A stretch of 64,000 nt of DNA from Bacteroidota bacterium (GCA_004295015.1 SHNE01000017.1:1-64000), one strand, 5' to 3'. Numbered from the stretch's first letter, positions 42,572 through 48,466 are shown. Made by a program: numbers and translations. The notes: generated by a model not told the origin, from the sequence alone.

Positions 42572-45196
42572 ATGTGTGAATTTAGTCGTGTGAAATTTTA
42601 CTTTTTCATACCTTATATTCGATTTGTTTTACTGACCATTTTCTTCATAAGTGCTAAGAGTACGCTGTATTCTCAGCCTTGTTTTGAACATGCTTTTGGC
42701 GGTTACCTTAACGAAGAAGCGAGTTTAGTACGGCCTACTTTCGATCACGGTTATGTGATAATTGGAACTCGTGATGATACCACTCATCATACAAGAGCTT
42801 ATTATGTTTTAAAACTTGACAGTTTGGGTATTCCCCAATGGGAAAAATCTTATGGTGACGCCTTCAATCAGAATGGATCTTCCATCGTTCAAACTTATGA
42901 TAGTGGTTATGCATTCGTCGGCTCACATGCTTCTGCCTTATATAATGCCGTTGCAGAGGTTGTAAGAATCAGTCCAACAGGAAGCCTTGTTGCCTCGAAG
43001 ACTTACCCGCCTTTTGATGGTTGGGCAACCGAGGGAATAGGAATTGTAGCAACGCCGGACTCCGGCCTCGCTATTTCGACATATACTGATGGGTTTATTT
43101 CACAAAATTTCTATACCCTCTCGAAACTGAAACAGGATCTCAGTATCAATTGGACAAATTTTGTTTCATTCGATGGTTCCATAATGAATGAACATGATGC
43201 TGTTCAGAGTCCGACCGGAAATTTATTTACCCTTGGTCATTATGCAAATTTTTACTACAGCTCTCCTCCAATATTAAATGTAACGGAGGTAAGAAAGATC
43301 AGTCCGGGTGGCTCTTTGTTGCTTGATACTTTGTATGCCTGGAATTCCGTTTCGAACTCAATCTCACCAACCAGTGACGGTGGTGTGATAATTTGTGGTG
43401 ATCGCGACACACTAGGTGATAAGAATATATCAATTACTTTATTGGATAGCACAGGGAACCTAAGATGGCAAAAAATTCTTGGTAGTTCACGAAATGAATC
43501 CGGAAGGCATGCTCGCCAAACAAAGGATGGTGGATTTGTTATACTTGGCAGTGTCCCGCATCTCTATTTTCCATTGCTCAATGATATAATTCTTGTGAAA
43601 GTAAATGCTCAGGGAGACAGCTTATGGACAAGAACTTTTGGAGCGACATTTGATGATGTAGCCGTTCATATGCAGGAAACCTATGATGGTGGGTTTATTA
43701 TTTTAGGTAGAACCAATAGTTTTGATTCAGCTCATATCTATCTGATCAAAACGGATAGCATGGGAGTCATTTCAACGCCATATAAAATTTCCGGTCCCGG
43801 AAATTATTTTTGTAAAGGTGATTCGGTGGTATTGAAGCTTAATCCGCTCCCGGCTCCGGGATCAACTGTTCAATGGTCAAGTTCTGAAACCGGTGACAGT
43901 ATACTCGTTGGGAAAAGCGGAAATTACACAGCTTCAATCACAGACAGCCTGGGTAATTCAACAACAACTCCAAATTATTTTTTATTCTTTGCTACTATAG
44001 CTGACGCCAGACTCAGTACATCAGACACTATGGGAGTATGCACCGGCGCCAAACTTGAAAATCTGGCAGCGGCTGGCTTGTCATTTTCATATACCTGGTA
44101 TCTGGATGACACCTTGCTGGCAGATATTAAAACTAATTTTCTGCGGCCGACCCGTTCAGGAAAGTATTCGTTGAGGGTTGATAATTATTGTGGAACCGAT
44201 GCAGACACAGTTGTCATCGATTCCTTGTACTCTTTACCACCTGCCCCGGTAATGAATTTTTCCGGGAACAAATTTATTTGTGTTGGAGATAGTTTGAATT
44301 TATTTGTACCCGATAGTAATCTATCTTACCAATGGTGGTACTCGCCGGCAGGTCCCGCTCAGCCGGTGGCGGGTGCAACTGATACTTCTTTCATGGCTTT
44401 GAGAGAAGGATACTATTTTGTTCAGGCGACAGATTTTCATTCATGTGAAAGTTCATCAATTCCTCTGAATATATACTTTGACAAGTACCCTGCCTACGTA
44501 AACACATCCGGACCTGTGAGCTTTTGTCAAGGTGGTCACGTAATTTTGTCAGCGCCATCCGGGACAGATTTTTTATGGAATACAGGAGATACAGTAAACT
44601 CATTGTTTATTAACACAGCTGGCGATTTCTGGTATTCTATGACTTCCATGTTTGGTTGCCCGAAATTTTCTGATACTGTGAGAACAGAGGTTTATTTGAA
44701 ACCATACATTAACCTTGGTCCAGATACAACAATCTGTAACTACAATAATTTTCTTGTGGACGCCGGACCCGGATACAACACCTATTTGTGGCAAGATGGA
44801 AGCACTAACCAGACTTTTTTAGCCGGGACATCTTCTCCCGGACTTGATTCGGCAATCTATTTTGTCGACGTTACAGATGTTAACGCATGCGCCAACAGAG
44901 ACTCGATAATGGTACGTTTCGATGTTTGTCAGACAGTAAATGAATATTTGCTGAATGGAGAAAATATTATTGTAAAATCAACTGGTTCTTTTGAAGGTGG
45001 TATTACAGCATACAATTCTACCTCTGATAATGTTGAATTAGAAATCCTCAACCTTTCAGGTCAGTTACTGATCAGCAAAATACTTGGTCCAGGTCTCACT
45101 TACTTAGCAGGCACCGGATTCCCACCGGGATTATATTTTTATTTAGTCCGGGATCAAAAACAGCTTTTAAAAGCAGGAAAAGTACTCCTTCAATAG
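42572..45196 (+). CDS. secreted seven-repeat protein with Ig-like and T9SS-type C-terminal domains
   Basis: An 874-residue protein with a signal peptide (about 10-34). Residues 45-400 hold seven repeats of about 52 residues with cores at about 58, 110, 163, 215, 269, 319 and 372, such as TSDGGVIICGDRD and TYDGGFIILGRTN, suggesting a seven-bladed propeller. Residues 405-790 are several Ig-like segments with paired cysteines and GPDTTICNYNNF, a pattern seen in large Bacteroidota surface proteins. The last 75 residues (LEILNLSGQLL, FPPGLYFYLVRD, AGKVLL) resemble a T9SS sorting domain but lack a clear YPNP start. It shares architecture with the 8512-10095 product. Likely cell-surface or released; ligand unknown. 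Confidence 0.8.
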   Translation: MCEFSRVKFYFFIPYIRFVLLTIFFISAKSTLYSQPCFEHAFGGYLNEEASLVRPTFDHGYVIIGTRDDTTHHTRAYYVLKLDSLGIPQWEKSYGDAFNQNGSSIVQTYDSGYAFVGSHASALYNAVAEVVRISPTGSLVASKTYPPFDGWATEGIGIVATPDSGLAISTYTDGFISQNFYTLSKLKQDLSINWTNFVSFDGSIMNEHDAVQSPTGNLFTLGHYANFYYSSPPILNVTEVRKISPGGSLLLDTLYAWNSVSNSISPTSDGGVIICGDRDTLGDKNISITLLDSTGNLRWQKILGSSRNESGRHARQTKDGGFVILGSVPHLYFPLLNDIILVKVNAQGDSLWTRTFGATFDDVAVHMQETYDGGFIILGRTNSFDSAHIYLIKTDSMGVISTPYKISGPGNYFCKGDSVVLKLNPLPAPGSTVQWSSSETGDSILVGKSGNYTASITDSLGNSTTTPNYFLFFATIADARLSTSDTMGVCTGAKLENLAAAGLSFSYTWYLDDTLLADIKTNFLRPTRSGKYSLRVDNYCGTDADTVVIDSLYSLPPAPVMNFSGNKFICVGDSLNLFVPDSNLSYQWWYSPAGPAQPVAGATDTSFMALREGYYFVQATDFHSCESSSIPLNIYFDKYPAYVNTSGPVSFCQGGHVILSAPSGTDFLWNTGDTVNSLFINTAGDFWYSMTSMFGCPKFSDTVRTEVYLKPYINLGPDTTICNYNNFLVDAGPGYNTYLWQDGSTNQTFLAGTSSPGLDSAIYFVDVTDVNACANRDSIMVRFDVCQTVNEYLLNGENIIVKSTGSFEGGITAYNSTSDNVELEILNLSGQLLISKILGPGLTYLAGTGFPPGLYFYLVRDQKQLLKAGKVLLQ

Positions 45197-45238: not shown

Positions 45239-45246
45239 TATCTTTG
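45239..45246 (+). promoter_or_regulatory. -7 promoter element of the metal cassette
   Basis: TATCTTTG, an exact TAnnTTTG match, 8 nt before the preferred ATG at 45255 and inside the longer frame that opens at 45210. This supports the inner start and predicts a near-leaderless mRNA. The -33 position has CTG instead of TTG. Confidence 0.5.
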
Positions 45247-45254
45247 CATTATTC

Positions 45255-45668
45255 ATGACAGCATTCAAGCGAATTCTTGCAATAGTTTTGGCCACCGTGG
45301 TTTTCGTATCATCCGGTGGTGTAGTGCTTGCTGTTCACATTTGTTCTAAAAATTCCAGCAAAGAAGTTTCCTTCTTCAGTAACGAAACCTGTTGCTCAAA
45401 GAAAACGTCTTGTTCGAATTCTGATTTTCAAAAGATTCTTAAGAAAAATTGCTGCAATCTTAAGATCACTTATCACAAGGTTGATATCTCCTCAATAAAT
45501 TCTGAGGTTGCACCACTTCCGATTCATGTAATTGATGTTAGCCATTTCAACTTCGAAAATGCTTTTGTTCAGCAGGTAATTTTAAAAAGTGTTTTAACCA
45601 ATAAAGCTCCTCCATTTTTTACTGGAGGCAAATCCTTTCTTGCTATTTCTGAGAACTATTTGATTTGA
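45255..45668 (+). CDS. HYC_CC_PP-type cysteine-rich exported protein
   Basis: A 137-residue protein from the ATG at 45255, which opens a clear signal peptide (MTAFKRILAIVLATVVFVSS). Its landmarks are an HxC (H28, C30), a CC pair (C46-C47), C53, a second CC pair (C66-C67) and a PP pair (P119-P120). These fit the Bacteroidota family named HYC_CC_PP from its motifs, here with Ile in place of Tyr. Function is undefined. The position directly before a TonB-dependent receptor and a secreted heavy-metal-associated protein suggests metal binding, probably Cu(I) or another thiophilic ion; this is inference. The cysteines fall after the predicted cleavage site, so they would lie in the periplasm or outer envelope. 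Confidence 0.8.
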   Translation: MTAFKRILAIVLATVVFVSSGGVVLAVHICSKNSSKEVSFFSNETCCSKKTSCSNSDFQKILKKNCCNLKITYHKVDISSINSEVAPLPIHVIDVSHFNFENAFVQQVILKSVLTNKAPPFFTGGKSFLAISENYLI

Positions 45669-45748
45669 TTTTTGTGATGATGTTTAGGCGAAAAGCCTGA
45701 GACCTCTTAGTGGGTTTAATGTACATTCAATCACAAAATTTGTATCAA

Positions 45749-48103
45749 ATGAAATATTATCAATTTATTGGAACTTTATTTCCTGCTTCCACAGGTGGCA
45801 TTGCAGATGAATCATCTCATTACCGGGGGAAGGCTGAATGTAAATGGAATTTTCTTTCACGGAATTTTTTTAGATTCAGAACTTTAATTTCTTCTTTCTT
45901 CCTGTTGTGTGCCCTTGGCAATCCTCTAATTGCCAACTCGCAAGAATTGTTGAAAGGAAAAGTTGTGGATAGAGACAATGTCTCCAAAACCGAGAATGAA
46001 CTTCCCGGAGCGAATGTTTATTGGATTGACGGATCATTCCCGACAGTTACCGATGAACATGGAAATTTCAGTATAAGCTTACCTGATGCCTTGCCGGCTA
46101 AATTAATAGTCAGCTTTGTCGGATTTCAAACTGATACCATACTTGTCGAAAAGCAAAAGAAAATTAAGGTCATTTTGAAAAGCAGTGTAGAATTGCAAGG
46201 AGTCGATATTACGGCAAGACGTGAAGCCGTTGGAATATCCACAATCAATCCTATAAATATTGAAAAGATTACTCAAAAGGAACTATTAAAGGCAGCCTGC
46301 TGCAACTTGTCCGAGGCATTCGAGACAAGTCCGACAGTAAATGTTGCTTACAAGGATGCAGTAACGGGAGCGAAGGAAATTCAAATGCTTGGTCTTTCAG
46401 GTGTGTATTCTCAATTGATGACTGAAAATATTAGTTCTATGCGCGGAATAAGCGGAATTTATGGACTGGCATTCATACCAGGTCCTTGGATGGAATCTAT
46501 ACAAGTGACTAAGGGCAGTGGTTCAGTAGTCAATGGATACGAGTCGACTACCGGTCAGATCAACATTGAATTGCTTAAACCGGATGTAGATGAAACGCCT
46601 CGTTTTTATTTGAACCTTTTCAGAGAGCTTAACGGAAACTCTGAGATTAACACACATTTCAAAAGAACTATAAATGATAAGTTGAGCAGTATATTAATGC
46701 TGCACGGAAATTATATGGGAAGAGAGATGGATCACAATGGGGATCATTTCAAAGACGTTCCGACCGGTCAGCAGTTTAATCTGTATAACCGCTGGCAATA
46801 CCATAGTGGAAATAAATTAGAGTCTCAGTTTGGCTTAAAACTCCTCACGGACAGGCGAGAAGGAGGGCAATTGAAAGATGCTGTGGCAACAGGTCCTTCG
46901 GGACAAATTTACTCGACACAGGTCGAGAACAAACGGGCGGAGGCGTTTTTGAAAGTTGGAGTGATATATCCCGATAAGCCATTTAAAAGCATAGGAAATA
47001 TTGTCAATGTTTCAATTCATGATTTGAAATCAAACTTTGGTCTGAAATCGTATGATGCCACGCAGAAAAGTTTTTTTATCCAGAGTATTTACCAGAATAC
47101 CTTCGCTCAGACAAACCACCAGTATAAATTCGGACTAAACTACCGATATGATATCACTGAGCAGAAGTATAACAATCAGCCTTTACAAATTATTGAAAAT
47201 ATTCCCGGAGTATTTGCAGAATACACATACAATTATATTGATAAATTAACAGCTATCGCCGGAGTGAGGGAAGATTATCATAACAATTATGGTTGGATAT
47301 TTACTCCAAGATTTCATGCCAAGTATAACCTTACCGATAATTTTCTTGTGAGACTGAGCGCAGGAAAAAGTTTTAGAGTGGCCTCCTTGTATTCAGATAA
47401 TATCAGCGTGATGGCTTCGTCAAAAGCACTTAAAATTACAGAAGACATTCTTCCTGAGAGAGCATGGAATTATGGTTTTAACAGCACAATTAAATTTACC
47501 TTTTTTGACCGGGAAGCCTCTCTGAGTGGTGATATTTATCGAACCGATTTTATAGATCAATTGATAGTGGATGCTTATTCTGATTCTTCATCAATTTTAT
47601 TTTATAATTTGAGTGGTAAATCTTATTCCAATAGCATTCAGTTTACGTTCAACTACGAGTTATTGCCTCGTCTCGATGTTCGGCTTGCTTATAAGCTTGA
47701 TGATGTAAAGTCGACCTACCTCGGAATATTGCAGGATAAACCCCTGGTGTCAAGAAATAAGGCTCTTGGAAATATTGCATACACAACAGCAAATGAACAC
47801 TGGAAATTTGATTATACACTTATTTGGGACGGACAGAAGAAGCTCCCCGTAACATGGGAGCATGCCGATCATGGACAGCTCAGTTCTTACTCTCCTGATT
47901 TTTATATCATGCATGCTCAGGTGACTAAAGTATTCAGGAAATTTGAGTTGTACGGGGGCTGTGAGAATCTTCTTGATTTCACCCAACACCAACCTGTAAT
48001 TAACTCTGATAATCCGTTTAGCAACGAGTTTGATGCTTCACGGATATGGGGACCTGTAGATGGTCGCAGAGTTTTTGCAGGGTTTCGCTATAAATTTCAA
48101 TAA
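45749..48103 (+). CDS. TonB-dependent outer-membrane receptor, metal-cassette type
   Basis: About 784 residues from the ATG at 45749; ATG 45719 and GTG 45710 are alternatives, and all leave an unusual stretch of about 40 residues before the hydrophobic signal (LISSFFLLCALGNPLIANSQ). A carboxypeptidase-like (CarboxypepD_reg) domain follows (LLKGKVVDRDN, PGANVYWIDGSFPTVTDEHG), then a plug with ELLKAACCNLSEAF (C184-C185) and LSGVYSQLMTENIS, and a 22-strand-type barrel ending GFRYKFQ. The plug's Cys-Cys pair recurs in relatives beside HMA proteins. It would import a scarce ligand with TonB energy. It lies between the HYC_CC_PP gene and the HMA gene, with 18 bp to the latter. Confidence 0.88.
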   Translation: MKYYQFIGTLFPASTGGIADESSHYRGKAECKWNFLSRNFFRFRTLISSFFLLCALGNPLIANSQELLKGKVVDRDNVSKTENELPGANVYWIDGSFPTVTDEHGNFSISLPDALPAKLIVSFVGFQTDTILVEKQKKIKVILKSSVELQGVDITARREAVGISTINPINIEKITQKELLKAACCNLSEAFETSPTVNVAYKDAVTGAKEIQMLGLSGVYSQLMTENISSMRGISGIYGLAFIPGPWMESIQVTKGSGSVVNGYESTTGQINIELLKPDVDETPRFYLNLFRELNGNSEINTHFKRTINDKLSSILMLHGNYMGREMDHNGDHFKDVPTGQQFNLYNRWQYHSGNKLESQFGLKLLTDRREGGQLKDAVATGPSGQIYSTQVENKRAEAFLKVGVIYPDKPFKSIGNIVNVSIHDLKSNFGLKSYDATQKSFFIQSIYQNTFAQTNHQYKFGLNYRYDITEQKYNNQPLQIIENIPGVFAEYTYNYIDKLTAIAGVREDYHNNYGWIFTPRFHAKYNLTDNFLVRLSAGKSFRVASLYSDNISVMASSKALKITEDILPERAWNYGFNSTIKFTFFDREASLSGDIYRTDFIDQLIVDAYSDSSSILFYNLSGKSYSNSIQFTFNYELLPRLDVRLAYKLDDVKSTYLGILQDKPLVSRNKALGNIAYTTANEHWKFDYTLIWDGQKKLPVTWEHADHGQLSSYSPDFYIMHAQVTKVFRKFELYGGCENLLDFTQHQPVINSDNPFSNEFDASRIWGPVDGRRVFAGFRYKFQ

Positions 48104-48121
48104 CTAAAAAAATAATCCGAC

Positions 48122-48466
48122 ATGAAAAATATCAGAATTTCAATTATTGTACTTCTTGCATTTCTTTTTTCTTCTTTGGAGGGAATTGCACAAGTGGATA
48201 CCGTCAAAATTGCAACTTCGTCCCTTTGTAGTACATGCAAGAAAAAGATTGAGCATGATTTGTCTTTTGAAAAAGGAGTGAAGAAATCTGAAGTGGATAT
48301 CGATACAAAAGTCGTAACGGTAATCTATGACTCAAAAAAGACAAATCCTGATAAAATTAGGATGGCGATCACAAAATCAGGCTATGATGCAGACTCCTTA
48401 AAGGCTGATCCAAAGGCATTCAATCGACTTCCTGATTGCTGCAAGGATCCTGATGCACATCATTAA
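48122..48466 (+). CDS. exported heavy-metal-associated (HMA) domain protein
   Basis: A 114-residue protein with a signal peptide (1-23, ending EGIAQ) and one HMA domain (25-90). The metal site is C36 and C39 in SSLCSTCKKKIE, with the ferredoxin-like pattern VKKSEVDIDTKVVTVIYD and ITKSGYDAD. Normal HMA domains begin MxCxxC; here Leu replaces the Met before the first Cys. The tail carries an extra CC pair (C106-C107) and ends HH. In the periplasm it could bind Cu(I) or another soft metal and pass it on. It starts 18 bp behind the TonB-dependent receptor, so they are co-transcribed. Metal identity is inference. Confidence 0.88.
   Translation: MKNIRISIIVLLAFLFSSLEGIAQVDTVKIATSSLCSTCKKKIEHDLSFEKGVKKSEVDIDTKVVTVIYDSKKTNPDKIRMAITKSGYDADSLKADPKAFNRLPDCCKDPDAHH

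Follow-up and report, generated by a model that had tools for sequence, protein, structure and literature searches.

What does a small exported protein of the HYC_CC_PP family do at the head of an operon for a TonB-dependent receptor (TBDR) and a secreted HMA protein? The question is raised by positions 45,239–48,466 of a 64,000-nucleotide stretch of DNA from a Bacteroidota bacterium (GCA_004295015.1; hereafter the window). A reading made from the sequence alone had seen three adjacent genes with paired cysteines there, and had taken the HYC_CC_PP product as a relay protein working with the receptor. HYC_CC_PP was named in none of the papers found by a literature search, the papers searched reported arrest, metal binding or regulation for no HYC_CC_PP protein, and expression data for an HYC operon under copper were not found. 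We compared some 180 related loci overall. For the first set, the surroundings of about 100 HYC genes were fetched, and 98 distinct HYC genes were counted in them. The second set, of 80 loci, was drawn by receptor profile alone and is independent of HYC.

The three genes lie in tandem on the plus strand in the order HYC_CC_PP, TBDR, secreted HMA, and the open reading frames, their order and the cysteines first described were verified in the sequence. The HYC frame (45,255–45,668, ATG at 45,255; 137 aa plus stop) encodes, in order, a signal peptide, C30, C66-C67, a variable spacer, a Pro-Pro (PP) pair and a C-terminal tail; the codons for P119-P120 (45,609–45,614) are followed by 17 codons and the stop. 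It was assigned to the family by model NF047658 with 28.3 bits, marginally above the curated cut-off of 28; scores among relatives reach 156 bits, and the same genome carries two clearer members on another contig. The receptor (45,749–48,103, 784 aa) exceeded the Pfam cut-offs for its CarboxypepD_reg-like, plug and barrel domains (PF13715, PF07715, PF00593). Its AlphaFold2 model had a mean pLDDT of 82, with Cir, BtuB, FpvA and OprC among the Foldseek matches. The longest frame opens at GTG 45,710; the start at ATG 45,749 is needed for the C184-C185 numbering used from the outset, and also suits the RNA structure described below. After a gap of 18 bp, as had been stated, the HMA gene follows (48,122–48,466, 114 aa; HMA PF00403, 4e-12), with a CxxC at C36-C39 and a C-terminal CC at C106-C107. 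The gene upstream of the operon (42,572–45,196, plus strand) encodes a protein of 874 aa that combines an Ig_7 domain with a sorting tail for type IX secretion, and nothing was found to tie it to the HYC operon.

HYC_CC_PP was present in 74 of 247 genomes sampled from the phylum Bacteroidota. The gene after HYC shared its strand in 97 of 98 cases, with a median gap of 93 bp, and the gene before it in 66 of 98. HYC headed TBDR operons at 40 of the 98 loci and CusA/TolC efflux operons at another 40; at the remainder, multicopper oxidase or HMA genes mostly lay downstream. An HMA gene was nearly always included in the HYC-headed TBDR operons. In the second set, HYC was upstream of the receptor in 65/72 loci, and an HMA gene was adjacent in 41/70 and missing in 29/70. 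The HYC-TBDR-HMA cassette is therefore real, and HMA is its less constant member; the three families are kept together across Bacteroidota, so the relay reading could not be refuted on the ground that they are not conserved together. In a tree of the HYC proteins, which is poorly resolved because they are short, TBDR-type and efflux-type leaders were interleaved, and the supported branches require at least four changes of type. At two loci (L089 6106–8808 and L123 6285–8867, both minus strand), HYC stands ahead of a longer receptor type of 860–900 aa, which is without the AACC plug motif described next and has another CC (GCCLYR / ECCLYE).

The receptor's cysteine pair (C184-C185, codons at 46,298–46,303) lies in the plug, within KAACCNLSE. 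A CC was found at this place in 37 of the 39 TBDRs beside HYC genes, the other two being a different receptor type, and 14 diverse members identified from synteny all had the CC of the AACCNL motif, whose first A is S in a few receptors. The CC was also invariant in a second, 33-member alignment, which is no test of the pair because CC was part of its search pattern. The conservation of the plug cysteines, on which the relay reading had also depended, thus held; in that reading, the pair could be a gate that responds to metal or redox state. In the receptor model, the pair is placed between the first two plug helices, a region usually on the periplasmic side of the plug, and this position would suit a hand-over of copper to the HMA protein. 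Both the CxxC and the C-terminal CC occurred in all 37 HMA neighbours listed. The HMA cysteines in the sequence-only reading were thus correct and conserved, while the terminal HH given with them was not generally conserved.

The HYC protein itself is conserved in a different way. Across 40 relatives (the window protein and 39 from the second set), only C30, C66 and C67 were invariant and P120 was near-invariant; the remaining residues were hypervariable. Of the two pairs originally noted in this protein, C66-C67 thus stood, C46-C47 was present but not invariant, and C30, the 'HYC' cysteine, had not been listed. A PP 10 to 24 residues from the C-terminus occurred in 87/98 HYC proteins and in 2/525 products of other small genes at the same loci, a comparison that is partly built in, as the NF047658 model itself contains PP. 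In the window protein, 17 residues follow PP (family median 15), and the tails of 11/98 HYC proteins have none. Neither of the arrest motifs RAPP and RGPP was found in any of the 87 PP-bearing proteins.

The distance from C66-C67 to the C-terminus was nearly fixed (median 73 residues, 72 to 74 in most), and the C-terminal half is hypervariable in sequence and fixed in length. The CC-to-PP and PP-to-end distances were anticorrelated (−0.47 and −0.53 in the two locus sets). The two lengths compensate, so that the HYC stop codon looks like a fixed reference point. A small folded domain could also account for a constant length from CC to the end. AlphaFold2 was confident only over residues 1–20, the signal peptide, which is assigned from the sequence and this model; it gave a low-confidence hint of a small beta hairpin around C30 and C66-C67, and a fold search with this low-confidence model returned no matches.

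The region around the stop codon was predicted to form an RNA stem with the start of the next gene. In the window (45,657–45,756), the 5′ arm (45,657–45,683) contains the HYC stop codon and the 3′ arm (45,723–45,756) the receptor ATG, with two short inner hairpins predicted between them. The fold had an energy of −29.3 kcal/mol (z −4.67), and none of 200 shuffles folded as well. We then applied a swap test, in which the HYC stop region of each locus was paired with its own or with other loci's next-start regions. Over 90 loci, own pairs averaged −13.56 kcal/mol and swapped pairs −8.83 (z −17.7), compared with −9.58 and −8.93 for ordinary gene pairs. The window's arms paired at −21.3 kcal/mol, and no swapped pair in their row or column did as well. 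The independently drawn receptor set gave z −10.6, reached in 0 of 20,000 permutations. When the test was slid along the sequence, the difference between own and swapped pairs was −4.0 at +5 from the HYC stop, −1.3 at −10 and at most 0.6 elsewhere; the signal is localised to the HYC stop codon.

Kinship works against such a contrast, since kin share similar arms; that arm sequences differ while pairing is kept amounts to covariation without an alignment. The permutation was used in place of alignment-based covariation because the gaps align poorly. In an alignment of 13 related loci, 5 of 10 predicted pairs had changed on both sides with the pair kept, each in one sequence only. The stem was weak at the genome's two other HYC loci and at loci whose first downstream gene is HMA or HMBD-like. 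Rfam gave no relevant match at the leader. An intrinsic terminator was also considered and rejected on reading the folds: the 3′ arm ends in the start codon and no U-run follows it.

The 5′ end of the operon is also distinctive. The sequence-only reading had given the first gene its own promoter element, and a Bacteroidota-type −7 element TAnnTTTG (TATCTTTG) does lie at 45,239–45,246, 8 nt before the HYC ATG. The 150 nt before the ATG contained this element in 61/98 HYC genes, as against 16% of 1172 control genes; its median distance to the HYC ATG was 7 nt (commonest 4, most often 4 to 8). In Bacteroides promoters, a TAnnTTTG so near the ATG leaves almost no 5′ untranslated region. HYC transcripts are therefore predicted to be leaderless or nearly so, taking the transcription start from the promoter element. 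At the other end of the frame, the stop codon was TGA in 58/98 HYC genes (59%) and in 18% of controls, and in the second set in 32/67 HYC genes and 9/80 receptors; slow termination, or the sequence of the stem, may lie behind this enrichment.

By comparison of gene order, motifs, spacing, stem and promoter position, HYC_CC_PP is probably a cis-acting, co-translational metal sensor of the CutF/CruR kind, encoded by the first cistron and controlling a copper importer and a periplasmic chaperone. Copper as the metal, ribosome arrest, the sign of regulation, and copper transport and transfer are the parts of this model that we infer. Translation of the near-leaderless mRNA would begin at its first codons, and the signal peptide would direct export of the nascent chain. 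With a ribosome at the HYC stop codon, C66-C67 would lie about 73 residues up the chain, beyond the ribosome tunnel plus translocon, so that the invariant cysteines could sense metal in the periplasm, most likely Cu(I). A bound metal, acting with PP and the C-terminal tail, would alter the dwell time of the ribosome at the end of the frame. This end forms the 5′ arm of the stem, and the 3′ arm overlies the next gene's start region. A ribosome held at the end of the frame would keep the stem open and the receptor would be translated; otherwise the stem would shut. The genes controlled in the window would be the TBDR, probably a copper importer, and the HMA protein, which would probably receive copper on the periplasmic side, handed over by the plug CC. 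As one leader family serves both probable import and probable export operons, HYC leaders may differ in sign. The role of a relay partner for the receptor, by contrast, fits poorly: the family stands equally often before efflux genes, and its few invariant residues (three), lack of a confident fold, C-terminal half of fixed length and stop-anchored stem are better explained by a cis-acting leader.

Within the leader model, arrest might occur at PP and not at the stop. The stalled ribosome would then stand some 30 nt short of the stem, leaving it closed and the receptor off until metal frees the stall, whereupon completion of HYC would open the stem. Consecutive prolines stall ribosomes, and PP is the commonest C-terminal feature of the family; proline-dependent stalling has also been discussed for CutF (PMC9973294). 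However, the R-A/G-P-P context is absent, 11 of the 98 tails lack PP altogether, and the cysteines keep their distance to the stop, not to PP. The footprint geometry points the same way: a ribosome at the HYC stop covers the first part of the 5′ arm, whereas one at PP, at least 45 nt upstream, leaves that arm uncovered. We thus favour sensing at the stop codon or close to it, PP then being about 15 residues further along the tunnel, and regard arrest at PP as a possible but doubtful variant.

The identity of the metal was judged from neighbouring gene families, which suggest that it is probably copper, as had first been proposed. HYC genes also head CusA/TolC and multicopper-oxidase operons. 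The window genome's two other HYC genes lie in an island with CusA (TIGR00914) and CopA-type and CueO-type multicopper oxidases, and at one locus (L056) a P-type ATPase with HMA and HMBD domains stands between HYC and TBDR-HMA in one gene string. It seems unlikely that a different soft metal (mercury, silver or zinc), or a non-copper metal chelate, is what the receptor-HMA pair handles. The HMA protein did score about equally against MerP and CopZ models, below the cut-off of each, and the CusA/CzcA families include Zn/Co/Cd pumps; the CopA- and CueO-type oxidases and the HMBD-type ATPase found with the HYC family nevertheless argue against it.

The copper island of the window's genome (contig C21) also holds a DUF6660 protein (Pfam 4.6e-14) with Cys/His residues and a C-terminal 'WQPPKIS', directly ahead of a CusA-like gene (L034 739–1056 and L207 4289–8635, both minus strand); we consider it a second, different leader-like family. 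A small Cys-rich frame at L034 2108–2515 (plus strand), whose tail reads HPPPPEADIRIFIQSFQI, is the first gene of a copper gene cluster, in a layout resembling that of HYC leaders. It had no NCBIfam match and no significant Pfam match.

Alternatively, HYC could be an ordinary secreted copper-binding buffer or chaperone that acts in trans, with the RNA stem a separate coupling device. The signal peptide, the three invariant cysteines and the low-confidence hairpin would suit such a protein. Its conservation is confined to three columns, however, with a hypervariable spacer of fixed length and PP fixed near the C-terminus; it is the immediate same-strand upstream neighbour of several unrelated systems; and the stem begins at its stop codon, while a confident fold is absent. 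We therefore find a trans-acting role improbable. Plain translational coupling, with receptor output proportional to HYC and metal control at the promoter, would suit the position of the stem and the element directly ahead of HYC, but it leaves the invariant cysteines, the fixed CC-to-stop distance and PP unexplained and is the least probable account.

The proposed leader shares much with two described ones, CruR and CutF, whose copper responses are opposite in sign (PMC9426467, PMC9973294). Like CutF, the DUF2946-type leader of Rhodobacter capsulatus cutFOG (PMC9973294), HYC is a small Sec-exported first-gene protein with a Cys metal site and a C-terminal PP, is found at copper operons, and has a stem-loop, here predicted, over the start region of the next gene. 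It differs in having C30 plus CC where CutF has CxxxC, in a PP about 15 residues before the end, in a stem whose 5′ arm begins at the stop codon itself, and in its leaderless promoter layout. The CutF-like features (Sec signal, Cys site, PP within 15 aa of the C-terminus, length <150 aa, same-strand neighbour) were all present in many HYC relatives, the window's PP falling two residues beyond that limit, and the predicted stem would likewise occlude the downstream start region. Pfam DUF2946, however, matched neither the window HYC nor any of the 40 relatives.

CruR, the DUF2946 leader of Bordetella pertussis cruR-bfrG(crtA)-bp2921 (PMC9426467, PMC12914433), likewise has a fixed Cys-to-PP spacing and heads a three-gene operon with a copper TonB-dependent transporter. 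Its RAPP, however, lies three residues from the end and it acts by Rho-dependent termination over a 162-bp gap, whereas HYC has no RAPP and a stop-to-start stem; the third gene there is PepSY_TM and here HMA. Copper-related RAPP/RGPP leaders were not found in Bacteroidota (PMC12992588), which fits a different motif there. The CrtA logo is without conserved Cys, unlike the invariant plug CC of the receptor here. The receptor shares its fold class with OprC-type copper transporters (OprC 6z91 was among its Foldseek matches), but has about 13% identity to OprC, a CarboxypepD_reg-like N-terminal domain and the AACC plug motif. The HMA protein has the HMA domain and CxxC of MerP and CopZ and is secreted as MerP is, but it bears the extra conserved C-terminal CC.

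A survey that left the generality of the CutF mechanism open had already listed CutF-like proteins, some of them from Bacteroidota, ahead of RND efflux and TonB genes (PMC9973294). Our analysis links HYC_CC_PP to this mechanism class, and adds a stop-anchored stem with statistics, a leaderless layout and a receptor-HMA pair with conserved cysteine pairs. More tentatively, HYC_CC_PP may represent a phylum-wide leader class, without detectable DUF2946 similarity, that reads periplasmic copper with the ribosome at its own stop codon, signals through the stop-start stem and controls import operons as well as export operons, presumably in opposite directions. A described copper-import pathway of Bacteroidota was not found in our literature search, and the receptor with its invariant plug CC and the periplasmic HMA protein are likely to constitute one. 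For the widespread HYC_CC_PP family, the model offers a testable function; if it is true, the stop-to-start stem would couple translation to metal sensing by simple physical means.
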